This document shows, piece after piece, positions 15,850 through 33,363 of a DNA stretch of 34,290 bases (its first letter is position 1; each line of letters opens with the position of its first letter). The notes under the pieces were generated by a model. The model was given only the letters and a program-made list of their open reading frames with translations, was not told where the DNA came from and searched no databases. Source of the DNA: an uncultured Flavobacteriales bacterium (GTDB taxonomy: Bacteria; Bacteroidota; Bacteroidia; Flavobacteriales_D; Crocinitomicaceae). A program made the position numbers and the translations under genes. The stretch is taken from assembly GCA_903945495.1 (NCBI GenBank), contig CAJAVU010000043.1, positions 1-34,290 on the forward strand, written 5' to 3'.

Positions 15850-15857
15850 TAGTTTTG
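15850..15857 (+). promoter_or_regulatory. -7 promoter element (TAGTTTTG), probable leaderless start
   Basis: TAGTTTTG fits TAnnTTTG and ends four bases before the ATG at 15862, which puts the transcription start at or next to the start codon. No good -33 TTTG is seen 19 bases upstream (GATC there). Confidence 0.55.
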
Positions 15858-15861
15858 CGGC

Positions 15862-16428
15862 ATGAAATGGATTGGTGAACGTATTAGCTTTGTTGACGAT
15901 AAAGTAAAGACGACAATTGTAATTTATCCTGAAAATGTTACATGGGTAAAAGGATTGATGGGTGCGTGGGTTGCCATGTGGACTGTAATCGGTGCTACAA
16001 TTGTTTGGTCGTATTATACGTTTAAATTAACCGATCAAGAAAATCTAATCATTTACATTTTCATGGTGTTTTGGTTGTATTACGCCGTCAAAGTATTTCG
16101 CTCATTCGCTTGGTTAATGTGGGGAAAGGAACTTGTGAAGATCAATGAGGCTTCGTTTACCTATAAAAAGTCGGTGAAAAATTACGGGAAGGCAACACCG
16201 TATTATTTCGAAAACATTAAGAAAATTACCATGTCAACACCAAAAGATCGTTCTTTTCAAGCGATTTGGGAGGCATCACCTTGGGTTCGAGGTGGGGAAC
16301 GTTTGGAATTTGAATACATGGGTAAAGTCATTCGTTTTGGTCGTAAATTGGAAGAGAAAGAAGCCAGACTTCTTTTCAATTTGATTACGAAAAAGATCGA
16401 AGAAAAAATGAAAAAGAAAAAAGATTGA
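15862..16428 (+). CDS. hypothetical two-TM membrane protein, 188 aa
   Basis: I do not recognise a named family. Two hydrophobic segments (about residues 32-54 and 62-84) are separated by a short polar turn, after a ~30-residue N-terminal part. The remaining ~100 residues are soluble and basic, with a beta-rich pattern and a final helix ending in a run of lysines. This layout (TM hairpin then a beta domain) resembles small bacterial PH-like membrane proteins. It is probably an inner-membrane protein with the C-terminal domain in the cytoplasm, by the positive-inside rule. It is followed after 51 bases by a lipoprotein gene on the same strand. Confidence 0.7.
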   Translation: MKWIGERISFVDDKVKTTIVIYPENVTWVKGLMGAWVAMWTVIGATIVWSYYTFKLTDQENLIIYIFMVFWLYYAVKVFRSFAWLMWGKELVKINEASFTYKKSVKNYGKATPYYFENIKKITMSTPKDRSFQAIWEASPWVRGGERLEFEYMGKVIRFGRKLEEKEARLLFNLITKKIEEKMKKKKD

Positions 16429-16479
16429 TAAATCTTTGTTACCTTTCTTGGTGAAAGAAGTTCTAGTTAAAATTTCACC

Positions 16480-17334
16480 ATGAAAATTCTCCTTTTTAGC
16501 TCTGTAGGTATTGTACTATTTTTGGCTTGTTCGTATCAGCAAGTTACAAAAGGTGCCACCGAAAATGAGCAAGTTGTAATTGAAAATCCAGAAGGAAAGA
16601 CACTTCAAGAACGCTTTAATGCTCCAGAAGGATTCGTGCGAGACAGTTTAGATTCTACTTCTTTCGGTGTTTATTTGAGAAAATTACCCCTAAAACCAGC
16701 AGGTTCATTCGTGAAACTCTACGATGGACGTGAGAAAACAAAACCAAATGTCTATTGTGCCGTTGTTGATTTACCAATTGGAATACGCGATTTACACCAA
16801 TGTGCCGATGCGGTAATGCGTTTGCGTGCTGAATATTTGTGGTCACAAAAGAAGTATACATCGATTCACTTTAATTTTACAAGTGGCTTTCGGGCGAATT
16901 ATTCCGAATGGATGAAAGGAAACCGAATTACTGTAAATGGTAACAGCGTTTCTTGGGTACAAAAAAAGCCAGCTTCGAATACTTCTGCTGATTTATGGGC
17001 GTACATGGAAATGATTTTTAATTACGCAGGAACACTTTCTTTGTCGAAAGAATTAAAAGTAGTAGCAGTAAAAGACATGGAAATTGGAGATGTCTTTATC
17101 TTGGGCGGTTCACCAGGTCACGCAGTAATTGTGGTTGATAAAGCGACAAATGCAACAACAGGAAAACAAGTGTTCATGTTGGCACAAAGCTACATGCCTG
17201 CGCAAGAAATTCAAGTATTGATTAATCCGAATGAAGCAACTAATTCGCCTTGGTTCTCGACTGAGTTTGGTGATGTATTGGAAACACCAGAGTGGGATTT
17301 TAAATCAACGCAATTGATGCGATTTGCTGATTAA
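16480..17334 (+). CDS. DUF4846 family lipoprotein
   Basis: This 284-aa protein opens with a lipoprotein signal peptide: hydrophobic residues 3-15 then the lipobox F-L-A-C with C17. The mature part has the conserved pattern of DUF4846: a P-x-G-F-x-R start (~48-52), YLRKLPLKP (~64-72), KLYDGREK, then DLHQCADAVMRLRAEYLW (~106-123), the most diagnostic stretch. The GDVFILGGSPGHAVIVVD region near 205-222 may form an active site, but no function is established for the family that I know of. It is likely anchored in the envelope. Its stop codon directly abuts the stop of the convergent GNAT gene with no base between them. Confidence 0.83.
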   Translation: MKILLFSSVGIVLFLACSYQQVTKGATENEQVVIENPEGKTLQERFNAPEGFVRDSLDSTSFGVYLRKLPLKPAGSFVKLYDGREKTKPNVYCAVVDLPIGIRDLHQCADAVMRLRAEYLWSQKKYTSIHFNFTSGFRANYSEWMKGNRITVNGNSVSWVQKKPASNTSADLWAYMEMIFNYAGTLSLSKELKVVAVKDMEIGDVFILGGSPGHAVIVVDKATNATTGKQVFMLAQSYMPAQEIQVLINPNEATNSPWFSTEFGDVLETPEWDFKSTQLMRFAD

Positions 17335-17802
17335 TTATGAATTCCATTGAATTTTCACAGCTGAAATGACTTCATTGTCGATGCGCTGATGCGAAACAAG
17401 TTGAAAATCATTTTTAAGGTAAAAAGCTAAAGGAGAACAATAAAAACTTCCGTCGCTCATTGTAGCATTTCCATGATCAATCACCCAACCATTTAATTGC
17501 TTGTTGGATTGTTTCATGAAGTTCAACAGTTGTGAACCAATTCTTTTTCCTTGCTTCGCCTTGCCAATAATCAATGCAAACCAGCGTTCTTCATTTCGGT
17601 CAAACTCAAATCCCCAAGCAAAAATTGCGTTATTTTCTTCCAACAAATAATGCTTGCAATAGGATAAGGTTGCTAAATAGGCTTCAAAATCTTCAAGCGT
17701 TTTATGCGCAAGACTTGCAGGATATTCTCGGTTCCAGAGTTCCATGAGTTGCAATAGTTGTTCTGTTTGCAACGATTTTGTATCAAGGGAAGTAATTTCC
17801 AA
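17335..17802 (-). CDS. GNAT family N-acetyltransferase, 155 aa
   Basis: The protein has the GNAT pattern: an N-terminal helix, a W-F-A-L-I-I-G strand, then the acetyl-CoA pyrophosphate loop Q-G-K-R-I-G-S-Q-L-L (around residues 84-93), and a C-terminal strand set with AFYLKNDFQLV, typical of the segment that closes the acceptor site. The acceptor is unknown. It is the last gene of a minus-strand operon, starting one base after the stop of the preceding GNAT gene, so the two are probably co-translated. Confidence 0.82.
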   Translation of the reverse strand: MEITSLDTKSLQTEQLLQLMELWNREYPASLAHKTLEDFEAYLATLSYCKHYLLEENNAIFAWGFEFDRNEERWFALIIGKAKQGKRIGSQLLNFMKQSNKQLNGWVIDHGNATMSDGSFYCSPLAFYLKNDFQLVSHQRIDNEVISAVKIQWNS

Positions 17803-17803
17803 C

Positions 17804-18232
17804 TTATAGATTTTTCTCCATTAAAAAATGTTGCAATACATCGAACAATTTGTAGGATGGTTCAATCAGCGTATAGTTTAATTTCAAATAGAAGTCAACA
17901 GCATAGTCGCGGGCATGCAAAATGATTTTTTGTCCAAAGAGTTCTTTTGTTTTTTCTTCTGTTGCTTCCATGATTTTGCGACCGTAACCAGCACCTTGTT
18001 CTGCTTTTTCAACTGCAACAAAGCGCACTTGAAATACTTCAGCATCTTGTTGGTCCAAGCGAGCAATTGCTTTTAAAATGTCATTGTCATAAAGCGCAAA
18101 ATGAATTCCTGTTGCATCACCATCATTGCGTTCACTGCCTCTTGTTTGGTTCAGTGGTTCACGTAAAATGCGGTAGCGTAAATCGAAGTAATCTTCCCAT
18201 TCACGTTCTGTTTGTGGTGATCTTATATCCAT
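17804..18232 (-). CDS. GNAT family N-acetyltransferase, 142 aa
   Basis: A compact GNAT protein: an R-Y-x-I-L-R-x-P-L segment near the start, the strand F-Q-V-R-F-V-A-V-E, the acetyl-CoA loop E-Q-G-A-G-Y-G-R-K-I-M (about residues 77-87), and a C-terminal H-A-R-D-Y-A-V-D-F-Y-L-K-L-N-Y stretch. The RYxILRxPL and ILHAR features resemble ElaA/PhnO-like acetyltransferases. The acceptor is not deducible. Its start lies inside the end of the CoA-transferase gene (10-base overlap). Confidence 0.83.
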   Translation of the reverse strand: MDIRSPQTEREWEDYFDLRYRILREPLNQTRGSERNDGDATGIHFALYDNDILKAIARLDQQDAEVFQVRFVAVEKAEQGAGYGRKIMEATEEKTKELFGQKIILHARDYAVDFYLKLNYTLIEPSYKLFDVLQHFLMEKNL

Positions 18233-19290
18233 TTGAAAGCGAGAGATGTAACACGTTTCGTTTCTATTCCTTCAATCTCTTCCGAACGAATGAGTTCTTT
18301 GGCTGATGCATTATTGAACACTTCTTCCAGATTTTTGATTTTCCCACAAGGCACATTGTTCTCCAACATATTTGCAAGAACTTCATCACTTGAATAATGT
18401 GCCAATTTATCTTGTAGAATTATTTGTAATTCTGTTCGATGTTCAACACGATTCACATTTGAAGCGAATTTAGGATCCGCAATCAATTCTGCTATCGTCA
18501 AAAATGCACATAACTTTTGAAAATGTACGTCGCTTCCAATAGCAAAAGTGATCAAGGCCTTGTCTTTCGTTTCAAAGATTTCACCGTAAGGCGCTATATT
18601 CGGATGTAAACTTCCAATGCGTTGTGGAATTTTGTCTTCCATTAAATAATTCGACGCTTGATTCGCTAAACTGGCAACAGCAGCATCATACAAGGAAACT
18701 GTAACTGTTTTCGCAACTCCATTTTGTGATCGTTCCATCAAAGCTAGGAGCAATGCTTCCTTTAAATGATGTGCAGCTAAAACATCAATAAAAGCAACTG
18801 GCATTTTTACAGGACCACTTTCTGTTGTTCCGTTCATTGACATAAAACCCGTTTCCGCTTGAAGGATTAAATCGTAAGCTACACGATCGCTTTCATCGCC
18901 AAAACCTGTGATTTTACCACAAATTAATCGAGGGTTAACTGCTCTAAGAACTGTATCTTGAATATTGAACTTCACATCATCACCCAATTTGAAATTGGAT
19001 AGAAGAATATCTGCTTGAGCAACCAATTCAAGGAATTGCTGATAATCGTTGTTGTTTTTTAAATCGAGTTGAAGGTATTCTTTCTTGTAATTGATAGATG
19101 AAAAATAAGCCGAAACGGAAGAAGTTGGTTCTTCGCTTCCCAATTTCCATGATCGTGTTACGTCAGGAACTTTAGGATTCTCCACTTTGATTACGCGTGC
19201 ACCCAATTCTGCGAAAAACGTTCCAACAGAAGGACCAGCGAGTACAGTAGATAAATCTAATACAACAAGATTTGAAAACATTTTATCCAA
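18223..19290 (-). CDS. Family III CoA-transferase (CaiB/BaiF type)
   Basis: This 355-aa protein begins with L-V-V-L-D-L-S-T-V-L-A-G-P and G-A-R-V-I-K-V-E-N-P, the CoA-binding start of CaiB/BaiF enzymes, and continues with DLKN, LLSNF and A-Y-D-L-I-L-Q-A-E-T-G. D169 in VAFIDVLAAHHL aligns with the catalytic aspartate of formyl-CoA transferase. Members move CoA between carboxylic acids, or act as racemases. It is somewhat shorter than the usual ~400 aa, mainly towards the C-terminus. It overlaps the YgiD gene upstream by 8 bases and the GNAT gene downstream by 10. The acyl substrate is unknown. Confidence 0.9.
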   Translation of the reverse strand: MDKMFSNLVVLDLSTVLAGPSVGTFFAELGARVIKVENPKVPDVTRSWKLGSEEPTSSVSAYFSSINYKKEYLQLDLKNNNDYQQFLELVAQADILLSNFKLGDDVKFNIQDTVLRAVNPRLICGKITGFGDESDRVAYDLILQAETGFMSMNGTTESGPVKMPVAFIDVLAAHHLKEALLLALMERSQNGVAKTVTVSLYDAAVASLANQASNYLMEDKIPQRIGSLHPNIAPYGEIFETKDKALITFAIGSDVHFQKLCAFLTIAELIADPKFASNVNRVEHRTELQIILQDKLAHYSSDEVLANMLENNVPCGKIKNLEEVFNNASAKELIRSEEIEGIETKRVTSLAFKWI

Positions 19291-20167
19291 TTTTTACCGA
19301 AGTCATCGTCAACGAACCAGCCATTGGTTCATCGTTGAAGAAAGAAATAGCATCCTTTTCTTCTTTTAATGCTAAGGTATATAAAAGTGGGTAATAATGA
19401 TCCGGTGTTGGGATGGCTAATTTTGATGCAGCGTTTAATTTTTCATAAGCAATTAACGCAGCATGGTCGTTTGCTTCAATTTTTTGTTTGAAAATGGTGT
19501 TCATTTCGATTGCCCAATCAAATCCAAAAGGCTCGTTTAATTTATCCCAAGCAACCATTCCAAGGTTGTGAACCATATTTCCACTTCCCATAATCAAAAC
19601 ACCTTTCTTGCGAAGCGCTTGAAGATTTTTTGCTAAATCGTAATGATATTGAGGTGCTTGATTGTAATCGATACTTAATTGTAAAACTGGAATATCGGCA
19701 TCTTGATACATGTGTCGAACGATTGTCCATGTTCCGTGATCCATTCCCCATTCGTGATCCAATCCAACAGTAGTTGTTGTGAAAAGTTTCGCTGTTTCTT
19801 CAGCTAATTTCGGATCACCTGGTGCTGGATATTCCACATCAAAAAGCGCCTGGGGAAAACCACCAAAATCATGAATGGTTGGTGGTTTTTCCATAGCAGT
19901 AATATATGTTCCTTTCGTCAACCAATGCGCTGAAACGCACAAAACGGCTTTCGGTTTTTCAATTTCAGAAGCTAATTTTTTCCAATACTGTGAAAAAGAG
20001 TTGTCCTCAATTCCATTCATAGGTGAACCATGTCCAACAAAAAGCACAGGCATTTTTGTGTCTGTTTCCGGCAAGGTATCCATTAGTGAGTTTAAAACAC
20101 TCACAGAACCAACGGCTCCAAGAGAAATTGTTCCACCCATAAGTTTCAGAAAATTACTTCTTTCCAT
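19283..20167 (-). CDS. ygiD: YgiD-type extradiol dioxygenase (4,5-DOPA dioxygenase, LigB family), probably exported
   Basis: This 294-aa protein fits the class III extradiol dioxygenases: H46 in FVGHGSPMN, H81 in SAHW, DHGTW (H144), GNMVHN (H200) and H257 in PTPDHYYPL. H46, H81 and H257 are the expected metal ligands by analogy with E. coli YgiD. The family opens catechol rings such as DOPA, although the physiological substrate is unclear. Unusually, about 38 residues precede the family start and form a signal-like segment (R-S-N-F-L-K-L-M-G-G-T then a hydrophobic stretch), resembling a degenerate Tat leader. It may therefore act outside the cytoplasm. It sits 8 bases after the cytochrome c gene. 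Confidence 0.87.
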   Translation of the reverse strand: MERSNFLKLMGGTISLGAVGSVSVLNSLMDTLPETDTKMPVLFVGHGSPMNGIEDNSFSQYWKKLASEIEKPKAVLCVSAHWLTKGTYITAMEKPPTIHDFGGFPQALFDVEYPAPGDPKLAEETAKLFTTTTVGLDHEWGMDHGTWTIVRHMYQDADIPVLQLSIDYNQAPQYHYDLAKNLQALRKKGVLIMGSGNMVHNLGMVAWDKLNEPFGFDWAIEMNTIFKQKIEANDHAALIAYEKLNAASKLAIPTPDHYYPLLYTLALKEEKDAISFFNDEPMAGSLTMTSVKIG

Positions 20168-20175
20168 TTAAGGAA

Positions 20176-20496
20176 TTACAATCCTAATTGCCAGTTAACG
20201 TAAGCTGTAACGTTTGCTCCTTGAGCTTCATCCAACTTAGATTTTTTAATCATCGGAGGCAAAACTTTATTCCAACGTTCGATAGAGTGTTCAGAAATCA
20301 CAGGCAAATCATGACATTTGCCACAATTGTTCGTGTATAGAGCCATTCCAGCCATTTCTGCATCTGTACCAGGTCTTAACATTGTAGATACTTTAACTTC
20401 TTCAACTTTTTTAACTTCTTCAACAATCTCTGCTGTTTTTGGTTGACAAGCTGCGAAGAATCCTAAAGCAGCAAATGCAATAAATACTTTTTTCAT
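20176..20496 (-). CDS. Mono-haem cytochrome c lipoprotein, 106 aa
   Basis: A lipoprotein signal peptide (M-K-K-V-F-I-A-F, lipobox F-A-A-C, C17) is followed by a charged linker of E, V and K (residues 21-37) and a small cytochrome domain with one haem site C58-G-K-C-H62. M82 in LPPMIKK is the likely distal ligand. It should be anchored in the envelope and carry electrons. The open frame extends upstream to 20544, but the ATG at 20496 is preferred: it gives a perfect lipoprotein signal and starts one base after the stop of the RlpA-like gene. It is placed between an exported protein and a possibly exported dioxygenase. Confidence 0.88.
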   Translation of the reverse strand: MKKVFIAFAALGFFAACQPKTAEIVEEVKKVEEVKVSTMLRPGTDAEMAGMALYTNNCGKCHDLPVISEHSIERWNKVLPPMIKKSKLDEAQGANVTAYVNWQLGL

Positions 20497-20497
20497 A

Positions 20498-20854
20498 CTA
20501 ATTAATTTTTTCAATTGTAACCGTTGTGATTCCATTTTGTACAAAGTTTAATTGTTGAGCGGCTTTCAATGATAAGTCAATTACATGTCCTGATTTTTGA
20601 CTCAAACGATCATTCACTTTAACAATTACAATAGAATCGTTTTTTAAATTTTTCACACGTAACAACGTTCCAAATGGAAGGCTTTTATGCGCTGCTGTTA
20701 ATGAATCTTGACGAAAAACTTCCCCTGAAGAGGTGCGCTTTCCCTCAAACTTATTATGGTAATAACTTGCTTTGCCAGTTTGAAATGTAGTGCTATAAAC
20801 AAAACTACATAAAAGCAAACATATTATTGACCAACTAACTACTTTCATTACCAT
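20498..20854 (-). CDS. RlpA-like double-psi beta-barrel protein, 118 aa
   Basis: A signal peptide (hydrophobic residues 4-20, cleavage around S-T-T-F) precedes an RlpA-type double-psi beta-barrel: GKASYYHNKFEGKRTSSGE, then AAHKSLPFGTLLRVKN, VKVNDR and HVIDLS. These motifs are the core of RlpA septal-ring lytic transglycosylases, which cleave peptidoglycan glycan strands lacking stem peptides. The protein consists of the barrel alone with no SPOR domain, as is common in this phylum. ATGs at 20854 and 20848 are both possible. It is the first gene of the minus-strand operon that runs to 17335. Confidence 0.87.
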   Translation of the reverse strand: MVMKVVSWSIICLLLCSFVYSTTFQTGKASYYHNKFEGKRTSSGEVFRQDSLTAAHKSLPFGTLLRVKNLKNDSIVIVKVNDRLSQKSGHVIDLSLKAAQQLNFVQNGITTVTIEKIN

Positions 20855-21142
20855 GGTAAATATATTTTAAATTTTCGAAACATCGATAGATGAGGGCGCA
20901 ATTTACGGAAAGATTAACAATTAAATGCAAAAAACAGGAAAGAAGGAACGTGTTTTAGTGTATTGGATGCTAAGCACAAGCGTCTCAAGAATACCATTTT
21001 AGCTGAGAATAAATAACAAAAATGGATTTGAAAACTAAACGTTTTGATAAACTAAACTTATTGAACGACAATCAATGATTTCTATCGTTTTCTTGCAAAA
21101 CGTCAAGCAATTTGCGAGATTTACCGCTCTAACAATTCAACA
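20855..21142. other. Divergent intergenic region between the RlpA-like gene and tex
   Basis: These 288 bases separate two divergent transcripts and must hold both promoters. I find no perfect TAnnTTTG with a 19-base-spaced TTTG on either strand. Weak candidates are TATATTTA just before the RlpA-like start (minus strand) and TATCGTTT near 21083 (plus strand). No open frame, repeat or RNA gene is evident. Confidence 0.4.
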
Positions 21143-23257
21143 ATGCAACAACACGAATTTATTCAATCGAATTCCGGATTAAATGGAAAATCCATTACCA
21201 ATACACTTAACTTATTAAATGAAGGAGCAACAGTTCCGTTTATTTCGCGCTACCGGAAAGAAATGACTGGTGGTTTAGATGAAGTTGAGATTACAACGAT
21301 TCGTGATTTGGCTAAAAAGCATGATGAATTAATTGCTCGACAAAACACGATTTTAAGTTCAATTGAAGAACAAGGTAAATTAACGCAAGAATTAAAAGAT
21401 AAAATTACTTCGTGCTTCGAATCGACAGTTTTGGAGGATTTGTATTTACCGTACAAACAAAAACGTCAAACGAAGGGAGACAAAGCAAAGAAATTAGGAT
21501 TAGAACCATTGGCACGTATGATTATGGCGCAACGTGGGGGAGATCCAGAAACTATGGCAGAGAAATTCGTGAAAGGCGATGTGGAGGATGAAGAAATGGC
21601 TATTTCGGGAGCAAAAGATATCATGGCGGAATGGATGAATGAAAATTCGGCAGCACGTGCACGCATGCGTCAAATGTTTCAACGTAAATCCGTTCTAGCG
21701 TCGAAATTGGTAAAAGGAAAAGAAGAAGAAGGTGCCAAATACCGCGACTATTTTGACTTTTCAGAACCATTATATAAATGTGTGTCACATCGTTTTTTAG
21801 CCTTGATTCGTGCAGAACGCGAAGGATTTATTTCCTTAAAAGCACAACCAGATCAACAAGAAGCAATTGAATCCTTGGAACGCTTTTTTGTGAAAGGAAA
21901 TGATGCCTGTGCTGAAATTGTAGCAGAAGCATGCAAAGAATCATACAAACGCTTAATGTGTCCATCGTTAGAAAATGAATTGTTGAACGAAGCAAAAGAA
22001 AAAGCAGATAAAGAAGCGATAAAAGTCTTTTCAACGAATTTACGTCAGTTGTTATTGGCGCCGCCAGTTGGTTCAAAGCGCGTTTTGGCAATTGATCCGG
22101 GATTCAGAACGGGTTGTAAAGTCGTTTGTTTGGACGAATCAGGGAATTTGTTGACCAATGCGACAATTTATCCGCATCCACCACAGAATGAAAGTTCGGC
22201 AGCACAAGGAAAAATTGCGCAATTGGTGCAAGCCTATAAAATTGAAGCGATTGCAATTGGCGATGGAACAGCAGGAAGAGAAACCGAGGCATTTATCAAA
22301 AAGACGCGTTTCGATCGAGATTTAGAAGTATACGTTGTACGTGAAGATGGCGCATCGATTTATTCAGCTAGTCCGATTGCACGAAAAGAATTCCCTGATT
22401 TTGATGTGACAGTGCGTGGTTCAGTTTCGATTGGTCGCCGATTGATGGATCCATTGGCTGAGTTAGTGAAAATTGATGCAAAATCGGTTGGCGTTGGACA
22501 ATATCAGCATGAAGTAAATCAAACACAGTTGAAAGAAGCTTTGGACGATGTTGTCGTTTCATGCGTTAATACAGTTGGTGTTGATTTGAATACGGCTTCA
22601 CCTTATTTATTAAGTTATGTTTCTGGACTTGGACCAACTTTAGCAGAAAACATTGTTGCTTATCGAACAGAAAACGGTGGAATTAAATCACGTGACGAAT
22701 TGAAGAAAGTGAAGCGTTTGGGTGATAAAGCTTTCGAACAGGCTGCAGGATTCTTGCGCGTGCGTGATGCCGATAACCCATTGGATAATTCATCGGTTCA
22801 CCCTGAAAGCTACAAATTGGTCTCGTCGATGGCGAAAAAATTGAAAGTTGATATTAAAGAAATGGTTGGTAATGAAGAATTGTTGAAGGCAATTAAGAAA
22901 ACAGATTTTCCAGACATTGATGGTTATACCTTTGATGACATCATTAAAGAATTGAAAAAACCGGGTCGTGATCCGCGTAAAAAAGCGAAAGTCTTAGAGT
23001 TTGATAATTCCATTCGAACAATTGATGATTTGCGTATTGGAATGATTCTTCCTGGAATTGTTACAAATGTGACAGCCTTTGGTGCATTTGTGAATATTGG
23101 AATTAAAGAAAATGGCTTAATACACAAATCACAATTAGCTGAAACCTATGTGGAAGATCCTGCACAGTTTATTTCGTTACATGAACATGTTGAAGTTCAG
23201 GTATTAGAAGTCGACGCTTCAAGAAAAAGAGTTGGATTAAAAAGAATTATCAACTAA
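21143..23257 (+). CDS. tex: Tex family RNA-binding transcription accessory protein
   Basis: The 704 residues show the Tex order: an N-terminal helical Tex_N part with PFISRYRKEMTGGLDE near residues 32-47; a YqgF/RNase H-like domain with A-I-D-P-G-F-R-T-G-C-K (about 315-325); tandem helix-hairpin-helix segments (Y-V-S-G-L-G-P-T-L-A and V-K-R-L-G-D-K-A-F-E-Q, about 490-555); and a C-terminal S1 domain (about 630-704, with V-T-A-F-G-A-F-V-N-I-G). Tex binds nucleic acids and is linked to transcription. Length fits the family. The gene stands alone, with a divergent spacer upstream and 64 bases before the next gene. Confidence 0.95.
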   Translation: MQQHEFIQSNSGLNGKSITNTLNLLNEGATVPFISRYRKEMTGGLDEVEITTIRDLAKKHDELIARQNTILSSIEEQGKLTQELKDKITSCFESTVLEDLYLPYKQKRQTKGDKAKKLGLEPLARMIMAQRGGDPETMAEKFVKGDVEDEEMAISGAKDIMAEWMNENSAARARMRQMFQRKSVLASKLVKGKEEEGAKYRDYFDFSEPLYKCVSHRFLALIRAEREGFISLKAQPDQQEAIESLERFFVKGNDACAEIVAEACKESYKRLMCPSLENELLNEAKEKADKEAIKVFSTNLRQLLLAPPVGSKRVLAIDPGFRTGCKVVCLDESGNLLTNATIYPHPPQNESSAAQGKIAQLVQAYKIEAIAIGDGTAGRETEAFIKKTRFDRDLEVYVVREDGASIYSASPIARKEFPDFDVTVRGSVSIGRRLMDPLAELVKIDAKSVGVGQYQHEVNQTQLKEALDDVVVSCVNTVGVDLNTASPYLLSYVSGLGPTLAENIVAYRTENGGIKSRDELKKVKRLGDKAFEQAAGFLRVRDADNPLDNSSVHPESYKLVSSMAKKLKVDIKEMVGNEELLKAIKKTDFPDIDGYTFDDIIKELKKPGRDPRKKAKVLEFDNSIRTIDDLRIGMILPGIVTNVTAFGAFVNIGIKENGLIHKSQLAETYVEDPAQFISLHEHVEVQVLEVDASRKRVGLKRIIN

Positions 23258-23321
23258 ATTTGCTCCGCTAGGCAACCATTCTATTTTTAATCTGTACTTA
23301 AGGAAATTAAAAAGATAAATT

Positions 23322-24455: not shown

Positions 24456-24475
24456 TTCAATTAACATAAGATTTT

Positions 24476-25922: not shown

Positions 25923-26062
25923 ATTGTGTTTAAAAAAGCTTCAATATCTTCGTTGTATTCATATTTTAAAAACTCATTTACGAATGTAAACTCCGTTTTT
26001 TAAACATTTCATACGCCTAAATCTTGAAGATTTTTTGAAAACACAATCATAAAGGATAAATG

Positions 26063-26091
26063 AAAGGAATGACGAAAGTTGTTCCTTTTTT
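26063..26091 (+). terminator. Terminator of rhlE, possibly bidirectional
   Basis: AAAGGAATGAC (26063-26073) pairs with GTTGTTCCTTT (26078-26088) around a GAAA tetraloop, with two G-T pairs, followed by a T-run to 26091. The hairpin lies 140 bases after the rhlE stop and its T-run reaches the menC stop codon (26090-26092). On the minus strand it could also terminate menC, but the T-run there is interrupted. A second weak hairpin (AAATCT/AGATTT, 26019-26033) precedes it. Confidence 0.7.
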
Positions 26092-27106: not shown

Positions 27107-27132
27107 TTTAGAAAATAAAATTATTTCATTAA

Positions 27133-27180
27133 TTACAACATTACAACATTACAACTTTGCAACATTACAACTTTGCAAAT
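27133..27180. repeat. Short tandem repeats in the menA-menC spacer
   Basis: Two copies of the 8-mer TTACAACA (27133-27148) are followed by two copies of a 16-base unit TTACAACTTTGCAACA (27149-27164 and 27165-27180, the second ending AAAT). The repeats make up much of the 123-base spacer, upstream of menC. They look like slippage-generated simple sequence rather than binding sites. Confidence 0.75.
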
Positions 27181-27229
27181 TAACAATGTTGCTAATAACT
27201 CCCGAAAACAGTGGCTTACAAGCGGGTAT

Positions 27230-28132
27230 TTACCCTATCATCAACCCAACCGAGGTCAAAATCGCAACAGCAAAAGTTGATAAAGCTACTTTTTTCAATT
27301 CAGGATCAAATTCTTTAGGATCTTTTGTTGCCATTACTTTTCGAACATGCAACAACAACAACACAAATGGAACCAATCCGATAAATGCCATTGGATGATT
27401 TTGTTGTGTAATAAATACAATGTGACAAACCAACGCGCCAAGTACTAATAAGGTATGATACATTTTTGCCAAATTCGCGCCCATCATCACAACCAATGTT
27501 CGCTTGTTTGATTTTTCGTCATTGGCTCTGTCGCGCATGTTGTTCAAGTTCAATACGGCCGCACTCAGCAATCCAATACTAGAAGCAGGTAATAGCAAAT
27601 TCCAATCGATCGTTTTAGAAAATAAAGGATAAACGCCTATCACGCTTACAATTCCGAAGAACAAAAACACCATGATGTCGCCGAAGCCATTGTAACCGTA
27701 AGCCTTTTTACCAACTGTATAAGTGATTGCAGCCAAAACACATGCAATTGCTAGTCCAATATAAAACCAAACAATTCCTTGAGCTAAATCCTTTGTCCCA
27801 ACAAAAATTAAACTTCCCGCTAATACAAAACTTAAAATCGCGGTTCCAATCACAGCATTTCGCATTTCTATTTTAGAAATAACACCAGATTGAACTGAAC
27901 GCATTGGGCCAATTCGCTCCGCATTATCCGTTCCTTTTAATGAATCACCTAAATCATTGGCTAAATTGGACAGAATTTGAAATGTAATTGTGGTGAACAT
28001 CGCAAGGGCGAAAATGACCCAATCCCAATGACCGTTGAATTTTGCAATAAACGATCCCAGAATAATTCCGGATAAAGAAAGAGGTAAGGTGCGCAAACGC
28101 AATGCTTTTACCCAAGCTTGTGATTTTGTCAT
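27230..28132 (-). CDS. menA: 1,4-dihydroxy-2-naphthoate polyprenyltransferase (menaquinone biosynthesis)
   Basis: This 300-aa UbiA-superfamily membrane protein has about eight hydrophobic segments. The two aspartate motifs that bind Mg-polyprenyl diphosphate are N59-D60-L-G-D63 (with D69) and N-N-M-R-D201-R-A-N-D205. The order and the KALRLRTLPLS start are typical of MenA. It attaches the isoprenoid tail to DHNA in the inner membrane, giving demethylmenaquinone. The frame is open to 28294, but the ATG at 28132 is chosen: it matches the family N-terminus, avoids overlap with the divergent gene at 28237, and follows a perfect -7 box by four bases. menC lies downstream on the same strand. Confidence 0.93.
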   Translation of the reverse strand: MTKSQAWVKALRLRTLPLSLSGIILGSFIAKFNGHWDWVIFALAMFTTITFQILSNLANDLGDSLKGTDNAERIGPMRSVQSGVISKIEMRNAVIGTAILSFVLAGSLIFVGTKDLAQGIVWFYIGLAIACVLAAITYTVGKKAYGYNGFGDIMVFLFFGIVSVIGVYPLFSKTIDWNLLLPASSIGLLSAAVLNLNNMRDRANDEKSNKRTLVVMMGANLAKMYHTLLVLGALVCHIVFITQQNHPMAFIGLVPFVLLLLHVRKVMATKDPKEFDPELKKVALSTFAVAILTSVGLMIG

Positions 28133-28136
28133 AACA

Positions 28137-28144
28137 CAAATGTA
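28137..28144 (-). promoter_or_regulatory. -7 promoter element (TACATTTG), probable leaderless start of menA
   Basis: On the minus strand TACATTTG fits TAnnTTTG exactly and ends four bases before the menA ATG (28132). There is no clear -33 TTTG at the 19-base spacing. It shares the 104-base divergent spacer with the element at 28225-28232 on the other strand. Confidence 0.6.
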
Positions 28145-28224
28145 CTTTAAGAAATTAGAAAAACCATTGTTCTTTGTTAACAAAGATATTTTTAAAAAGT
28201 TCTGCATACATAATAAAAATAATG

Positions 28225-28232
28225 TAAATTCG
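28225..28232 (+). promoter_or_regulatory. Candidate degenerate -7 element (TAAATTCG) before the NMO-like gene
   Basis: TAAATTCG differs from TAnnTTTG at one position and ends four bases before the ATG at 28237, the same geometry as the other probable leaderless starts in this window. A TCTG at 28201-28204 is a weak -33 candidate. Confidence 0.4.
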
Positions 28233-28236
28233 AAGA

Positions 28237-29208
28237 ATGGAACACGAAGTAAAGAGACCAGTTTTATGCGAAATGTTGGGAATTGATTTTCCAATTATTA
28301 TGGCGCCAATGTTCTTGGTGTCCAATGAAAAGATGGTAATTGAGGCTATTAAAGCGGGAATTACTGGAGCCATTCCAGCATTGAATTATAGAAATACGGA
28401 CGAACTTAGAAAAGCGATTCAATTCATTAAATCAGAGGTGAAAGGACCATTTGGAATTAATTTAATCGTTAATAAATCGAATTTCTTATACAAGGAACAA
28501 CTACAAGTTTGTTGCGAAGAAAAAATTGATTTCATAATAACCTCACTTGGTTCACCTGAGGAAACCATTCGCGAAGCACACAACGCAGGAGTGAAAGTAT
28601 TTTGTGATGTTACGGATGTCAATTATGCAAAAAAAGTTGAAAGCTTGGGTGCGGATGCTGTAATTGCTGTGAACAAAGAAGCGGGTGGCCACGCAGGTAA
28701 TATTCCTTTTTCTGAACTTATTCCGCAATTAGTGAAATCGGTAAAAATTCCGGTAATATCTGCTGGTGGAGTTGGAACAGGAAAGCAAATCAAGCAAATG
28801 GTGAAATTAGGAGCAGAAGGACTTTCGATGGGAAGTATTTTTATTGCCTCTACTGAAGCTGGTGTTTCTCAAGAATACAAACAAGCCTGTGTCGATTTCG
28901 GCGCAAAAGATATTGTAATGACGACCAAATTATCAGGAACGCCTTGTTCTGTTATCAATACGCCGTATGTTCAGAAAATCGGAACGAAACAAAATTGGTT
29001 AGAACGTTTATTAAATAAGAACAAACGTTTGAAAAAATGGGTCAAAGCACTTGTGTTCTTGAAAGGAATGAAAAGTTTACAAAAAGCAGCATTCAGTTCT
29101 ACTTATAAAACAGTTTGGTGTGCAGGTCCATCGATTGAATATGTAAATGCAATTCGACCGATTCAAGAAATTGTTCAACAATTAAAAGATGAATACAATG
29201 CCAGCTAA
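28237..29208 (+). CDS. Nitronate monooxygenase / 2-nitropropane dioxygenase family FMN enzyme
   Basis: This 323-aa TIM-barrel FMN protein has G-I-D-F-P-I-I-M-A-P-M-F at the start, NKEAGGHAGN near residues 147-156, and the phosphate-binding I-S-A-G-G-V-G-T-G-K and M-G-S-I-F-I-A strands. It is a distant relative of the enzyme at 7560-8513, not a close duplicate. The C-terminal ~90 residues are basic and family-specific. The physiological substrate is uncertain; nitronates, or another enoyl/quinone reductase activity, are possible. Its stop overlaps the start of the DUF4442 gene, so the pair is co-expressed. Confidence 0.85.
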   Translation: MEHEVKRPVLCEMLGIDFPIIMAPMFLVSNEKMVIEAIKAGITGAIPALNYRNTDELRKAIQFIKSEVKGPFGINLIVNKSNFLYKEQLQVCCEEKIDFIITSLGSPEETIREAHNAGVKVFCDVTDVNYAKKVESLGADAVIAVNKEAGGHAGNIPFSELIPQLVKSVKIPVISAGGVGTGKQIKQMVKLGAEGLSMGSIFIASTEAGVSQEYKQACVDFGAKDIVMTTKLSGTPCSVINTPYVQKIGTKQNWLERLLNKNKRLKKWVKALVFLKGMKSLQKAAFSSTYKTVWCAGPSIEYVNAIRPIQEIVQQLKDEYNAS

Positions 29209-29671
29209 AGAAATCTCCTTGAGAAAAATGCGTTGGATGTTGTTTTTGCTTGGATTGGTGAAAATACCAATTGTCGGTTTTGTGCGTCCTCGATTAATTA
29301 CAATAGATGACGAGACAGTACGCGTTAAAATCAAATTGCGTCGTCGAACAAAAAATCACTTGAAATCGATGTACTTTGGAGCATTGGCTGTTGGCGCTGA
29401 TGTCGCTGGTGGAATTCATGCATTTTACTTCGCTGAAAAAGCAGGTTCGAAAGTTTCATTTGCATTTAAAGGAATGAAAGCTGATTTTATTAAACGTGCA
29501 GAAAGTGATATTCTTTTTGAAAGTAACGAAGGATTATTGGTGAAACAGGCGATTGAACTTAGTAAATCATCAGGTGAACGAGTGAATCAAACCATTCAAG
29601 TGAAAGCGATAGATCAAAACCAAGAAGTTGTTGCAACCTTTGAAATGATCGTTTCTGTTAAGTGCAGATAA
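29189..29671 (+). CDS. DUF4442 hotdog-fold protein (thioesterase-like)
   Basis: The 160-aa sequence fits DUF4442: an N-terminal hydrophobic helix (W-M-L-F-L-L-G-L-V-K-I-P), the R-R-T-K-N-H-L-K-S-M-Y-F-G-A-L segment, then A-D-V-A-G-G, and a beta-rich second half. DUF4442 belongs to the hotdog superfamily of acyl-CoA/ACP thioesterases, but no activity is proven for it. Starts at 29189 and 29198 are both possible; the second (MPAKEI) still overlaps the upstream gene by 11 bases and is slightly preferred. Coupling to an FMN oxidoreductase suggests acyl metabolism (inference). Confidence 0.8.
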   Translation: MNTMPAKEISLRKMRWMLFLLGLVKIPIVGFVRPRLITIDDETVRVKIKLRRRTKNHLKSMYFGALAVGADVAGGIHAFYFAEKAGSKVSFAFKGMKADFIKRAESDILFESNEGLLVKQAIELSKSSGERVNQTIQVKAIDQNQEVVATFEMIVSVKCR

Positions 29672-29724
29672 ATAGGAATTCAACAAATCAAGCGTTAAGG
29701 GCTTAATTTATCAGTTCTAAAAGT

Positions 29725-29732
29725 TAACTTTG
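29725..29732 (+). promoter_or_regulatory. -7 promoter element (TAACTTTG) for the rhodanese-DedA-aroE operon
   Basis: TAACTTTG matches TAnnTTTG. CTTA at 29702-29705 stands 19 bases upstream, a near match to the CTTG seen at the rRNA promoters. The ATG is 17 bases after the box. Confidence 0.6.
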
Positions 29733-29748
29733 GACCAAATTAGTAATT

Positions 29749-30066
29749 ATGCGTTTGATATCTGCTTTAGAATTGCACGATGCAATGAAAAAAGGAAACG
29801 AATTTGAAATCATCGATATTCGTGAGTCTTATGAATATGATTTAGCGAATATTTGTTCGAAACATATCCCAATGGGTGAGATTAATCAGCGAATTGATGA
29901 ACTTCCAAAAGACAGAAACATTGTTGTGATGTGTCGTTCAGGAAAACGTGCAGAAGCAGTTGCTAATTTATTAATGACAGATTATTCTTTATCCAACGTT
30001 TATATTTTGGATGGCGGAATTTTGGCTTGGAAAGAAAATATTGACAATACACTTGATTTAGACTGA
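29749..30066 (+). CDS. Rhodanese-like domain protein, 105 aa
   Basis: A single rhodanese domain: IIDIRESYEYDLANI near residues 21-35, the active loop C62-R-S-G-K-R in VMCRSGKRAEAV, and the closing Y-I-L-D-G-G-I-L-A-W. The family transfers sulfane sulfur through the active cysteine, which is intact. It has no signal peptide, so it is cytoplasmic. It is the first gene of a three-gene run with DedA (one base apart) and aroE. The sulfur acceptor is unknown. Confidence 0.92.
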   Translation: MRLISALELHDAMKKGNEFEIIDIRESYEYDLANICSKHIPMGEINQRIDELPKDRNIVVMCRSGKRAEAVANLLMTDYSLSNVYILDGGILAWKENIDNTLDLD

Positions 30067-30067
30067 A

Positions 30068-30712
30068 ATGGTAGAATTATTCAAACATTTATTTAATTTA
30101 GATTTTGAATGGATTGTAAGTAATTACAGTGATTCAATTTACGTAGTATTGTTTTTGGTGATTTTCATTGAGACTGGATTGGTGGTGATGCCATTTTTAC
30201 CTGGTGACTCCTTGTTATTTATGGCAGGAATGTATGCGAATTCGAAAATAGATCCGTTGAATTTAAGTTACTTATTATTTTTCTTAAGTATTGCTGCAGT
30301 ATTGGGTGACAATATTAACTATTGGATCGGAAGACGTATTGGTTTAGGAGTTTTTGAATGGAAAATCCGCGGACGTCAATTGGTAAAAGAAAGCTATTTG
30401 AAGAAAACAGAAGACTTCTTTGAGAAAAGAGGAGTTTTTGCAATTATCATGGCGCGTTTCGTTCCGATTGTTCGAACATTCACACCTTTTGCAGCTGGAG
30501 TTGGAAAAATGAATTACCGAAAGTTCTTATTGTTTGATATTATCGGTGGAGTGCTTTGGATCTGTTCAATGACATTAGCGGGATATTTCTTGGGAGAAAT
30601 AAAATGGATCAAAGACAACAATGAAAAAGTTGTGTTAGGAATCATCTTTATTTCTGTTTTACCAATGCTAATTAGTGTAATCAAATCGAAAATGGCAGCA
30701 AAAAATGCGTAG
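30068..30712 (+). CDS. DedA family membrane protein
   Basis: The 214-aa protein has four to six hydrophobic segments and the DedA (SNARE-associated/VTT) signatures: F-L-P-G-D-S-L-L-F (about residues 44-52), with a proline-glycine-aspartate turn, and ARFVPIVRTFTPFAAGVGKM (about 135-154) with its key arginines. DedA proteins are inner-membrane transporters or lipid scramblases; some recycle undecaprenyl phosphate and others support membrane potential. It begins one base after the rhodanese stop and overlaps aroE by 8 bases, so all three genes are translated from one message. Confidence 0.92.
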   Translation: MVELFKHLFNLDFEWIVSNYSDSIYVVLFLVIFIETGLVVMPFLPGDSLLFMAGMYANSKIDPLNLSYLLFFLSIAAVLGDNINYWIGRRIGLGVFEWKIRGRQLVKESYLKKTEDFFEKRGVFAIIMARFVPIVRTFTPFAAGVGKMNYRKFLLFDIIGGVLWICSMTLAGYFLGEIKWIKDNNEKVVLGIIFISVLPMLISVIKSKMAAKNA

Positions 30713-31436
30713 ATTCGGTTTGTTAGGTAAAACCCTAGGTTATTCTTTTTCCAAGAAATTCTTCGAAGTGTATTTTGAGAAACATGCAATTGAAGCCCAA
30801 TTCGATAATTTTGAAATAGATTCAATTGAAAAAGTTTCTGACGTTTTTCAAGAAAATTTATCGGGTTTAACAGTTACAATTCCTTATAAAGAAGCAATCA
30901 TTCCTTTTTTAGATGAATTATCAGACGAAGCAAAGGCTATTGGCGCTGTAAATGTTGTTCAATTTAAAGGAGGAAAAAGGATAGGTCACAATACGGATGC
31001 TTTCGGATTTCACCAATCGATTAAACCATTTTTGACATTTCAGCATGAACGTGCATTGATCTTAGGGACTGGTGGCGCTTCAAAAGCGGTTGCACATGTT
31101 TTTAAATCTCTTGGAATAGATGTGATTTATTGCTCACGAAACCCAAAAGGTCCAAAAGAATTTTCATACGATTTGTTAAATGAACACATGGTGAAGGCGT
31201 GCAAGGTGATTGTAAATTGTACTCCGCTTGGAACATTTCCTAATACAGATGAATACATTAAATTACCTTTTGAGCACTTAACGTTAGAACATTTGGTAGT
31301 GGGTTTGGTATACAATCCTCCAAAGACGACCTTTTTATTGAAAGCTCAGGAAAATGGAGCAACTATATTAAATGGTGAATCAATGTTGAAAGAGCAAGCG
31401 TTAAAAGCTTGGTCAATCTGGAATGAAAAAGAATAA
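30705..31436 (+). CDS. aroE: Shikimate dehydrogenase
   Basis: The 243-aa sequence has the shikimate-binding G-Y-S-F-S (S14, S16), the catalytic lysine K62 in TVTIPYKEA, the NTDAFGF motif with D98, the NADP-binding GTGGASKAV and the closing N-G-E-S-M-L-K-E-Q-A. It reduces 3-dehydroshikimate to shikimate in aromatic amino-acid synthesis in the cytoplasm. At 243 aa it is slightly shorter than the usual ~270, as is common in Bacteroidota. The start overlaps the end of the DedA gene by 8 bases. Confidence 0.93.
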   Translation: MRRFGLLGKTLGYSFSKKFFEVYFEKHAIEAQFDNFEIDSIEKVSDVFQENLSGLTVTIPYKEAIIPFLDELSDEAKAIGAVNVVQFKGGKRIGHNTDAFGFHQSIKPFLTFQHERALILGTGGASKAVAHVFKSLGIDVIYCSRNPKGPKEFSYDLLNEHMVKACKVIVNCTPLGTFPNTDEYIKLPFEHLTLEHLVVGLVYNPPKTTFLLKAQENGATILNGESMLKEQALKAWSIWNEKE

Positions 31437-31474
31437 TGCCTTTTATTCGCTGATTTTTATTCTTAAGTTTCCTT

Positions 31475-31482
31475 TATCTTTG
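31475..31482 (+). promoter_or_regulatory. -7 promoter element (TATCTTTG), probable leaderless start
   Basis: TATCTTTG is a perfect -7 box that ends four bases before the ATG at 31487, so the transcript likely starts at or next to the start codon. The spacer from the aroE stop is only 50 bases and no TTTG stands 19 bases upstream (GATT there). Confidence 0.6.
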
Positions 31483-31486
31483 TTTC

Positions 31487-32122
31487 ATGTCAACACTTCA
31501 AGAATTGATAGCTCAAGGTGAGCATGTACAGCAAGATTTTAAATTTCGCATCGACGATCAAAAAAAGATTGCACGAACATTATGTGCTTTTGCTAATACA
31601 AAAGGTGGACGCTTATTAATAGGAGTGAAGGACAATCGAAAAGTAGCAGGCTGCAATCCAGAAGAAGAATTTCACATGATTGAAGGCGCTGCGCAATTGT
31701 TCTGTCAGCCGGAAGTGAAGTTTACGTCAAAAGTGTGGCAAGATGATTTTCGTTTGGTCTTGGAAATTAATGTTGAGCCTTCTGATATAAAACCGCACAA
31801 GGCGAAAGATGATGAGGGACGATGGAAACCATATGTGCGAATTGAAGATCATACGACAGCGGCAAACAAGATTCTTGAAAATGTTTGGAAGGAACAAAAG
31901 AAGTTACAAGCTCGTCCGGAGAGATTTGATGACGAAGAATTATCTATTTTGCGCTTGATTCGAGAAGAAGGGATGATTACATTAAGTAAATTGTATCGAA
32001 AAGCGAATTTACCACTCAGAAAAGTTGACCGACTGATCGTTTTATTCATTTGTTGGGATTTGGTCGAAATGATTTTTCAAAGTGATGGCACTTTTTATAG
32101 AATTAAGGAAATAGGGGAATAG
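31487..32122 (+). CDS. AlbA_2 (schlafen-type) domain protein with C-terminal winged helix
   Basis: The first ~135 residues match the AlbA_2 / divergent AAA-4 domain: Q-D-F-K-F-R near residue 17, then ARTLCAFANTKGGRLLIGVKD (about residues 29-49) and K-P-Y-V-R-I-E-D. The C-terminal ~55 residues (L-S-I-L-R-L-I-R-E-E-G-M-I-T-L-S-K-L) look like a winged helix. AlbA_2 proteins are nucleic-acid binding or putative regulators; some are linked to defence, but nothing else here suggests that. Among Bacteroidota this single-domain form is frequent and probably a transcription regulator (inference). Confidence 0.82.
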   Translation: MSTLQELIAQGEHVQQDFKFRIDDQKKIARTLCAFANTKGGRLLIGVKDNRKVAGCNPEEEFHMIEGAAQLFCQPEVKFTSKVWQDDFRLVLEINVEPSDIKPHKAKDDEGRWKPYVRIEDHTTAANKILENVWKEQKKLQARPERFDDEELSILRLIREEGMITLSKLYRKANLPLRKVDRLIVLFICWDLVEMIFQSDGTFYRIKEIGE

Positions 32123-32235
32123 CAAAGGAAATTTGCTTCTATTTCAAGAATTTACGTTTCTTAAAATTTCATAAAATCAAACAAAATCCGATTTTTTGTG
32201 TTATATTTAGAAATATTTTAAATAAGCACACACAA

Positions 32236-32430
32236 ATGGGAAGACCAGCGACAAAGCCAGCAAGATTGCGTAACGGATTTTACATTGAAGTTAAAACACA
32301 AGGAAGTAGTGCCATTTTAGTTAGAAGAGACACGAAAGAACAAATGCTTCTTGCTGCAGAAGATTACGCACGAACAAAGTTCGTTACAATTCGCGGAGAA
32401 ATGCGAAATGATAAATGGGTAGAATGTTAA
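32236..32430 (+). CDS. Small conserved-looking protein, 64 aa
   Basis: A 64-residue basic protein with no known domain that I can name. It begins MGRPATKPARLRNGFYIEV; the GRPATKP start is similar to AT-hook-like G-R-P tracts, and the rest is a short beta-alpha-beta pattern ending W-V-E-C. A strong terminator follows directly (32441-32467), which supports a real independent gene. A nucleic-acid-binding role is possible from charge and the GRP start, but this is a guess. It has a 113-base upstream spacer, AT-rich and without a perfect promoter match. Confidence 0.65.
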   Translation: MGRPATKPARLRNGFYIEVKTQGSSAILVRRDTKEQMLLAAEDYARTKFVTIRGEMRNDKWVEC

Positions 32431-32440
32431 AACTTAAATA

Positions 32441-32467
32441 AAAGGTCTTCGTAAGAAGGCCTTTTTT
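32441..32467 (+). terminator. Terminator of the 64-aa gene, abutting the next promoter
   Basis: AAAGGTCTTC (32441-32450) pairs with GAAGGCCTTT (32455-32464), one G-T pair, loop GTAA, followed by T-run 32462-32467. The last T is also the first base of the -7 box of the next gene. Confidence 0.88.
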
Positions 32468-32474
32468 ATTTTTG
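32467..32474 (+). promoter_or_regulatory. -7 promoter element (TATTTTTG), probable leaderless start of the MtfA-like gene
   Basis: TATTTTTG matches TAnnTTTG, begins on the last T of the upstream terminator and ends four bases before the ATG at 32479. A promoter reading would place RNA polymerase directly over the terminator hairpin. The sequence could alternatively be just the T-rich tail of the terminator, which lowers confidence. Confidence 0.45.
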
Positions 32475-32478
32475 TCCT

Positions 32479-33363
32479 ATGAATAACTATTTAAAATTCT
32501 TAGAAGGTAAAGCACGTTTCTCTGCTTGGTTGATTGTCCTTTTTGTTTCCTTATTGTTTGTCCCTTTATTATTGACTTCTGATTATAAGGTGTTGGCCAA
32601 AATAATTGGTGTTACAATTGTCGTTTTGTTTTCTGTAGCCTTATGGTTTTGGAGAACGCAAACTATAAGAAGTTTAAAAAAACAAGCTCGCATTAAATTA
32701 AATCTAAATGATCGTTTTTGGTTGAATGAACACATACCTTATTATAAGGCGTTGTCGAAATCGAATAAAATTATCTTTGAAGATCGTCTAGGTTTGTTCC
32801 TTGCTGAAATCAGAATTACTGAAATCGGAAAAGAAATACCAGAAAAAGAAACGTGTCTATATGTTGCAAGTTCTGCGATTATCGCTTTTTGGGGATTGCC
32901 TTATTGGAATTATGGAGAATTAACAGAAGTCTTGGTTTATCCGAAAGACTTTAATGAATCAAATGAGATTGTCGACAATGGGTATCTTCAAGGTAAGGTT
33001 CACCATGGAGGCTTAATGGATTCAACTATGATTCTTTCATTGGAATCACTTATTAAAGGATTCAAAAATTTGGATGGACACAATGTGGGGATTCATGAGT
33101 TCTCACATTTAATAGATAAGAATGATGATGTTATTGATGGTGTGCCAGGGTTGTTTTCAATTGATGATCAGAATTTATGGAATGAATTAATTGAAACAGA
33201 ATTGAGAAAACGTATCAAGCAAAACAAAATAGATAATTACGCATATACGGGTAAAACTGAGTTTTTCGCAGTAATTATGGAATATTACAGAGAAACACCA
33301 GAAAAATTAGAAAGACATTTCCCGGAAATTTATGCAATTCTGAAGAGGAACTTACCGAATTAG
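32479..33363 (+). CDS. MtfA-like zinc peptidase (M90 family), membrane-anchored
   Basis: The 294-aa protein has two N-terminal hydrophobic segments (about residues 16-34 and 38-56) and then a soluble MtfA-type domain. The zinc site is H206-E-F-S-H210 in GIHEFSHLID, with E261 in TEFFAVIMEYY as the likely third ligand. E. coli MtfA is a cytoplasmic zinc peptidase that binds the repressor Mlc; the Bacteroidota forms carry the extra TM pair. The substrate here is unknown. It is the last protein gene before the rRNA operon, 120 bases upstream of the first rRNA promoter. Confidence 0.9.
   Translation: MNNYLKFLEGKARFSAWLIVLFVSLLFVPLLLTSDYKVLAKIIGVTIVVLFSVALWFWRTQTIRSLKKQARIKLNLNDRFWLNEHIPYYKALSKSNKIIFEDRLGLFLAEIRITEIGKEIPEKETCLYVASSAIIAFWGLPYWNYGELTEVLVYPKDFNESNEIVDNGYLQGKVHHGGLMDSTMILSLESLIKGFKNLDGHNVGIHEFSHLIDKNDDVIDGVPGLFSIDDQNLWNELIETELRKRIKQNKIDNYAYTGKTEFFAVIMEYYRETPEKLERHFPEIYAILKRNLPN

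Follow-up and report, generated by a model that had tools for sequence, protein, structure and literature searches.

Our analysis of a 34,290-nucleotide stretch of DNA from an uncultured Crocinitomicaceae bacterium (Flavobacteriales; contig CAJAVU010000043.1), referred to below as the window, revealed a class of genes that carry the box TAnnTTTG exactly four bases before the start codon and that very probably are transcribed from this box into leaderless mRNAs. Spacers are denoted here as N4, N5 and so on, the number being the count of bases that separate the end of the box from the start codon. Translation in Bacteroidota does without Shine-Dalgarno pairing, and the way in which the ribosomes of these bacteria locate start codons is still a matter of debate. 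A preliminary description of the window had pointed to perfect boxes at N4 before five genes, and all five coordinates proved correct when read directly from the window sequence; its leaderless interpretation is also supported. In the mechanism that we favour, the N4 boxes would be ordinary -7 elements of the Bacteroidota primary sigma factor (sigma-ABfr type). What we infer is where the transcripts begin and how ribosomes bind them: RNA polymerase would start at the first base of the start codon or no more than one base away from it, the mRNAs would have no leader, and they would be translated by a 5'-terminal start-codon route and not by the leader-dependent, Shine-Dalgarno-independent route of most genes.

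The genome to which the window belongs (3.64 Mb; 3,642,191 bases in 114 contigs) was sampled in 40 stretches amounting to 799,593 bases (~22% of the genome), in which a simple Markov gene caller placed 565 starts. The box stood at N4 before 15 of these starts and at N5 before six, with seven in total at N6-11, 91 at N12-30 and approximately 0.7 per position thereafter. The N4 peak that the preliminary description had proposed to look for at genome scale was thus found by spacer in the sample, and it reappeared in string counts over the whole genome, where TANNTTTGNNNNATG occurs 137 times compared with 63 occurrences of the reversed pattern and 62 of the pattern with a 10-base spacer before ATG, which keeps the same codon phase. 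In 200 dinucleotide shuffles of the upstream 60 bases the N4 count averaged 0.57 and reached a maximum of 3, in agreement with the expectation that such a geometry would be rare by chance. Eight other or permuted motifs produced no N4 peak at the 565 starts. The six variants in which one TA base is altered occurred only four times at N4 combined, against 15 for TA..TTTG, and this near absence indicates that the TA bases are required; other single changes were represented by TAnnTTTA (6 at N4) and TAnnTTTC (4).

The same profile was obtained for 1201 genes pooled from the own genome and from genomes of the same family (G041), the same class (G154) and another class of the same phylum (G144). 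Boxes numbered 31 at N4 and 14 at N5, and the mean per position was 2.7 at N6-11, 7.9 at N12-30 and 2.2 at N31-60. The N4 boxes hence form a distinct spacing class, as had been proposed, in that counts spike at N4-N5, fall to background over N6-11 and rise again to a broad peak of leadered boxes at N12-30; in the genome of the same family the shoulder of the spike extends to N6. To follow the spread of this class, 296 genomes were surveyed, and the N4 counts were summed against phase-matched N10 counts for the class Bacteroidia (73 genomes) and for three families designated f24 (9/9 genomes), f16 (16/16) and f17 (first ten genomes). N4 exceeded N10 in 72 of the 73 Bacteroidia genomes (sums 7705 vs 4506) and in all nine genomes of f24, a family outside Bacteroidia that includes G144 and the genomes of loci L276-L291 (360 vs 79, ~4.6-fold). 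The N4 class therefore occurs in the phylum outside Bacteroidia too, in one further lineage at least. The excess was small in f16 (1108 vs 1021), one genome of which (G035, 134 genes) had no box at N4, and there was none over N10 in the first ten genomes of f17 (98 vs 97).

Several features of the N4 boxes are those of promoters. Gene context was counted in the four genomes, leaving out 79 genes at stretch edges, none of which had an N4 box. Of 424 genes with less than 30 bases between them and a co-directional upstream neighbour, only one had an N4 box, compared with 30 of the 698 other genes, and leadered boxes were divided in the same manner (10/424 vs 128/698). The N4 boxes accordingly avoid operon interiors, which is promoter-like behaviour. 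Base composition was compared between 31 N4 sites (26 sampled and five from the window) and 143 leadered sites aligned on the box. An AT-rich, G-poor stretch at -18 to -16 was common to both sets, as expected of an AT-rich element near -18; at -17 the frequencies of T and G were 0.68 and 0.00 at N4 sites and 0.54 and 0.03 at leadered sites. TTG starting at -35 to -31 was found at four of the 31 N4 sites and 39 of the 143 leadered ones. The preliminary description had noted that a -33 TTTG is not clear at the five window sites and had suggested that they may use only the -7 element. The first observation stands, but the second does not set these genes apart, since leadered sites are likewise without a clear -33 element and "-7 only" describes promoters of this type generally, in line with the portions of a study of Flavobacterium johnsoniae on which we draw (PMC6847099).

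The published distances between box and transcription start site (TSS) agree with the position of the spike. In the parts of the respective reports used here, the box occupies positions -12 to -5 when counted from the mapped starts of F. psychrophilum (PMC9723704), and 4 or 5 nt separate the box from the predicted TSS in 241 of 434 candidate elements of F. johnsoniae (PMC6847099). With these distances, a box at N4 would make the first base of the start codon the +1 position, and a box at N5 the base before it, and the expected +1 positions match the N4 spike and its N5 shoulder.

Leaderless mRNAs mostly start with AUG, and the N4 class conforms to this preference. In the 5' zones of genes of the four genomes an N4 box preceded 33 of 1869 in-frame ATG codons and none of the in-frame GTG (0/571), TTG (0/1262) or CTG (0/497) codons; for all non-ATG codons together the figure was 63/50,528. 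Within the window the GT9 gene, which starts with GTG, is the exception. Leaderless GTG genes were also considered as a general class and rejected, on account of the absence of N4 boxes before the 571 in-frame GTG codons; whole-genome counts pointed both ways, with a small excess over the reversed pattern in 14 of 20 genomes but not in the own one.

Conservation was followed in 60 family genomes per gene, from which the best 30 loci were examined and near-identical upstream regions then removed, the own copy being counted. This check, which the preliminary description had proposed, gave a positive answer for menA, the 188-aa gene and the GT9 gene, a weak one for the AlbA_2 gene, and for the MtfA-like gene a box in its own lineage only. 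The menA gene (1,4-dihydroxy-2-naphthoate prenyltransferase; 27230..28132, - strand; NCBIfam TIGR00751 and Pfam UbiA above cut-off) is predicted to be leaderless from the box TACATTTG-TGTT-ATG (28137..28144, - strand; N4 before ATG 28132). Among 24 upstream regions of its orthologues, eight had a perfect box at N4, 17 matched at least five of the six bases there, and no perfect box was found at any other spacer up to 44. In named records perfect N4 boxes were absent from all 12 menA loci titled Flavobacteriaceae, Lacinutrix, Formosa, Cloacibacterium, Riemerella, Planobacterium or Chryseobacterium; in four of these no start codon stands at the aligned position. A MenA 95% identical to the own one lies on a MAG named Crocinitomicaceae, which supports this family for the window.

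The 188-aa protein gene (15862..16428, + strand), likewise predicted to be leaderless, has the box TAGTTTTG-CGGC-ATG (15850..15857, + strand; N4 before ATG 15862). Its product matched neither Pfam nor NCBIfam families at E 0.001, and a match to it is present in 59 of the 60 family genomes. The box stood at N4 in 14 of 25 upstream regions, at N5 in four and elsewhere in two. Genus g141 presents a separate picture: none of four orthologues there (L159, L161, L163, L164) has an N4 box, and in two of the four (G296, G348) the match contains an internal stop codon; the gene may be diverging there. We rate the membership of both menA and the 188-aa gene in the leaderless class as near-certain.

The GT9 gene (heptosyltransferase-like; 713..1699, - strand; Pfam PF01075, Glyco_transf_9, above cut-off) is predicted to be leaderless from TATCTTTG-CGAC-GTG (1704..1711, - strand; N4 before GTG 1699). 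Across 27 upstream regions, perfect boxes occurred at N4 in four, N6 in three and N18 in two, and at least five of the six bases matched at N4 in 14; its membership of the class is probable. TAnnTTT(G/A) stood at N4 in nine of the 14 orthologues with a GTG start. Seven of these (L227, L228, L231, L233, L236, L237 and L244) carry TAnnTTTA, and the repetition of this variant together with a GTG start is unusual for a leaderless gene.

The spacing was also kept at genes elsewhere in the own genome. The uvrC gene, which has an N4 box there, showed N4 in ten and N5 in five of 30 family loci, and mnmA, also an N4 gene, showed N4 in four of nine loci (at the threshold applied, no more than 9 of the 60 class genomes searched gave a match); the own copies are included in both counts. 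The single control was the leadered gene at 12337, for which 27 of 30 fetched loci were retained after two truncated loci and one distant match had been left out; perfect boxes lay at 15, 17, 21, 22, 22 and 38 bases in six of them and at N4 in none. These comparisons suggest that evolution has preserved the leaderless state at particular genes. Twenty N4 proteins of the own genome (13 of the 15 sampled and seven from loci of the whole-genome string count), inspected for a functional theme, included GatC, UvrC, IspD, GuaA, Ung, MnmA and RnpA above NCBIfam cut-offs, along with a PurN-like protein below cut-off, glycosyltransferase-like, ABC-F, MFS and methyltransferase-like proteins, and unknowns.

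The two remaining genes of the five are the SLFN_AlbA_2 domain gene (31487..32122, + strand; Pfam PF04326 above cut-off), predicted to be leaderless from TATCTTTG-TTTC-ATG (31475..31482, + strand; N4 before ATG 31487), and the MtfA-like (Peptidase_M90) gene (32479..33363, + strand; Pfam PF06167 above cut-off, NCBIfam MtfA below cut-off), whose box is TATTTTTG-TCCT-ATG (32467..32474, + strand; N4 before ATG 32479). The T tail of a terminator-like hairpin (32440..32465, + strand) extends into this last box; the hairpin lies directly before it and starts 9 bases past a 64-aa open reading frame (ORF; 32236-32430). The 64-aa ORF, the strong hairpin and the -7 box of the MtfA-like gene are packed into 32236-32475 with almost no spare bases. 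A coupling of N4 boxes to terminators was considered and rejected: hairpins lie just before the N4 boxes of the MtfA-like gene and of some orthologues, but they were not enriched among sampled genes (1/31 at N4, 4/150 at N12-30).

A sixth gene had been reported with one mismatch at the same distance, and the box was indeed read as TAAATTCG-AAGA-ATG (28225..28232, + strand; N4 before ATG 28237); the gene (+ strand) belongs to the nitronate monooxygenase family (Pfam PF03060 above cut-off) and is a doubtful member. Two of the orthologues of the 188-aa gene likewise have the TTCG variant of this box at N4. The intergenic region between the divergent menA and 28237 genes (28171-28188) harbours a 16-bp perfect palindrome, TCTTTGTTAACAAAGA, at 28171-28186, with one base changed in the close relative L071. 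On the menA strand the palindrome overlaps a second TATCTTTG box, and after this box comes a very short reading frame that begins with ATG and is out of frame.

The genes at 12337, 24633 and 29749 had been named as comparators with the box at 17-60 bases. The boxes are present, although the distances were off by about one: TATGTTTG (12307..12314, + strand) lies 22 bases before ATG 12337, TAACTTTG (29725..29732, + strand) 16 bases before ATG 29749, and a third box 59 bases before the start of gene 24633. Overall the window is only mildly rich in N4 genes compared with the rest of the genome. With the same gene caller, 3 of its 28 genes carried an N4 box, compared with 15 of the 565 sampled elsewhere (P 0.048, one-sided Fisher test), and four N4-ATG strings were counted where 1.3 were expected (P 0.042).

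A number of observations weigh against the reading of these boxes as promoters of leaderless mRNAs. The AlbA_2 gene keeps the N4 box in only four of 22 upstream regions, and it is a likely member of the class in this species. For the MtfA-like gene 22 of 30 loci had to be dropped, and of the eight usable ones only the own copy has an N4 box; this box lies in a terminator T-tract and has no support outside the close lineage. It is kept in L071, which is 99% identical there. The start regions of this relative are 95-99% identical compared with ~90% overall, too similar for boxes to be singled out by this comparison, and neither the MtfA-like site nor the 28237 site has support beyond the 95%-identical close relative. 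The membership of the MtfA-like gene, the weakest of the five, and of gene 28237 is uncertain. The box TAGTTTTG before ATG 15862 contains a G where the refined consensus TAHHTTTG excludes it. The n positions were without G in 29 of 31 N4 boxes of the four genomes, but also in 100 of 120 background boxes at N31-111, so that the avoidance of G is weak evidence. A pyrimidine at -1, considered as a sign of the TSS, was only a trend (Fisher P 0.096; 0.044 in orthologues). Leadered boxes were few (8) in G144, and the second peak is unclear in that genome. Finally, whole-genome counts of GTG at N4 in 20 genomes, with the reversed pattern as the only control, gave 517 vs 440 for that pattern and exceeded it in 14 of 20 genomes (20 vs 31 in the own genome).

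A further point of this kind concerns menA, where the second TATCTTTG box is 48 bases ahead of the ATG and a leadered transcript could coexist with the leaderless one. N4 genes might more generally have dual promoters, with a leaderless transcript from the N4 box produced beside a leadered one from an upstream promoter or from read-through; the GT9 gene, which begins 15 bases after a co-directional gene ending at 1715, would also be open to such an arrangement. We regard this as unlikely, though by no means fanciful. Of the 15 sampled N4 genes, eight have an upstream neighbour on the opposite strand and six have a co-directional gap of at least 30 bases, and the menA orthologues repeat no other spacer as often as N4.

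It is very improbable that the starts were miscalled and that the true starts lie downstream on mRNAs with normal leaders. Most orthologues of the MtfA-like protein leave its first 10-12 residues unmatched, which makes its start uncertain. Nearly all listed loci, on the other hand, match MenA, the 188-aa protein or GT9 from one of the first six residues of the query onwards. Our simple gene caller placed the menA start at 28207 and the GT9 start at 1498, unlike the preliminary description; orthologue alignments back the starts of that description for both genes. Moreover, the own-genome counts were again 15 at N4 and six at N5 when every in-frame ATG near the start was used in place of the called start.

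The suggestion that the box is a translation signal of the mRNA (a ribosome site of the UUUG type) and not a promoter finds some appeal in a position suited to ribosome contact and in the lack of Shine-Dalgarno pairing in Bacteroidetes, yet it is scarcely credible given that such a signal should be equally useful to genes close behind a co-directional neighbour, where the box was found once in 424 cases, that TA is required, that N6-11 is at background, and that the same box with the same T-rich upstream stretch recurs at N12-30. Equally implausible is the idea that an AT-rich motif was matched by chance in a genome that is itself AT-rich, and was singled out after the fact: the DNA upstream of genes is rich in T, patterns were being looked for in the window and the window's own excess is mild (P ~0.04-0.05), but the shuffles, the confinement of the spike to N4-N5, the eight motifs without an N4 peak and the position kept in diverged orthologues refute chance for the class, leaving it in play for the MtfA-like gene and gene 28237.

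Leaderless mRNAs have already been reported in Bacteroidetes, and our finding is of a known kind. To judge from the excerpts considered here, 5.5% of mRNAs of 890 coding sequences are leaderless in F. psychrophilum (PMC9723704), ~3.7% of 5' untranslated regions are shorter than 10 nt in Bacteroides thetaiotaomicron (PMC7366714), and leaders exceed 10 nt in 87% of mRNAs of F. johnsoniae, leaderless ones being a minority (Baez et al. 2019, PMC6847099). The N4 box marks 1.9-2.9% of genes in our four sampled genomes, somewhat less than the 3.7-5.5% mapped in relatives. The leaderless mRNAs of F. psychrophilum and B. thetaiotaomicron share with ours the class of box and the outcome; they are mapped transcripts from other families, whereas the present ones are predicted from spacing, in Crocinitomicaceae and with class-wide counts and per-gene conservation. 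With the sigma-ABfr -7 promoter (TAnnTTTG/TAHHTTTG; PMC6847099) the N4 sites have in common the consensus and the AT-rich element near -18; in that promoter the -33 motif is weak and the TSS often lies 4-5 nt downstream, although that study, in the passages covered, stresses leadered mRNAs and does not describe an N4 class. Zheng et al. 2011 (PMC3160421), as far as the sections considered here go, used a promoter box ~10-12 bases before the start to mark TA-led leaderless genes, as we do. Unlike ours, their search was for Pribnow-like signals, which identified leaderless genes in one of 37 Bacteroidetes/Chlorobi genomes, with a possible underestimate noted, whereas the Bacteroidota box gives the N4 excess described above in nearly every Bacteroidia genome. 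In the portion of a 2017 study used here, nucleotide biases of Bacteroidetes were tied to leaderless mRNAs and/or ribosomal protein S1 (PMC5397173). A limited look at the open-licence literature yielded no description of the N4 spacing class or of its per-gene conservation; what is new here is the spacing trough at N6-11, the spread through the class and the conservation at individual genes.

Counting the Bacteroidota box at N4 might allow leaderless genes to be predicted from sequence alone in genomes of the class, and the N6-11 trough together with the conserved spacing at individual genes makes selection on leaderless translation directly testable. We tentatively propose, as a view that falls somewhat short of even probability, that in Bacteroidia leaderlessness is a selected, gene-specific state and not promoter drift, the promoter remaining locked at N4/N5 over long periods at menA, uvrC, the 188-aa gene, GT9 and possibly mnmA while its surroundings change, and leaders of ~2-7 nt being avoided. 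If true, this would mean two discrete routes of translation entry in a phylum that does without Shine-Dalgarno pairing, and the leaderless genes would constitute a regulon-like group.

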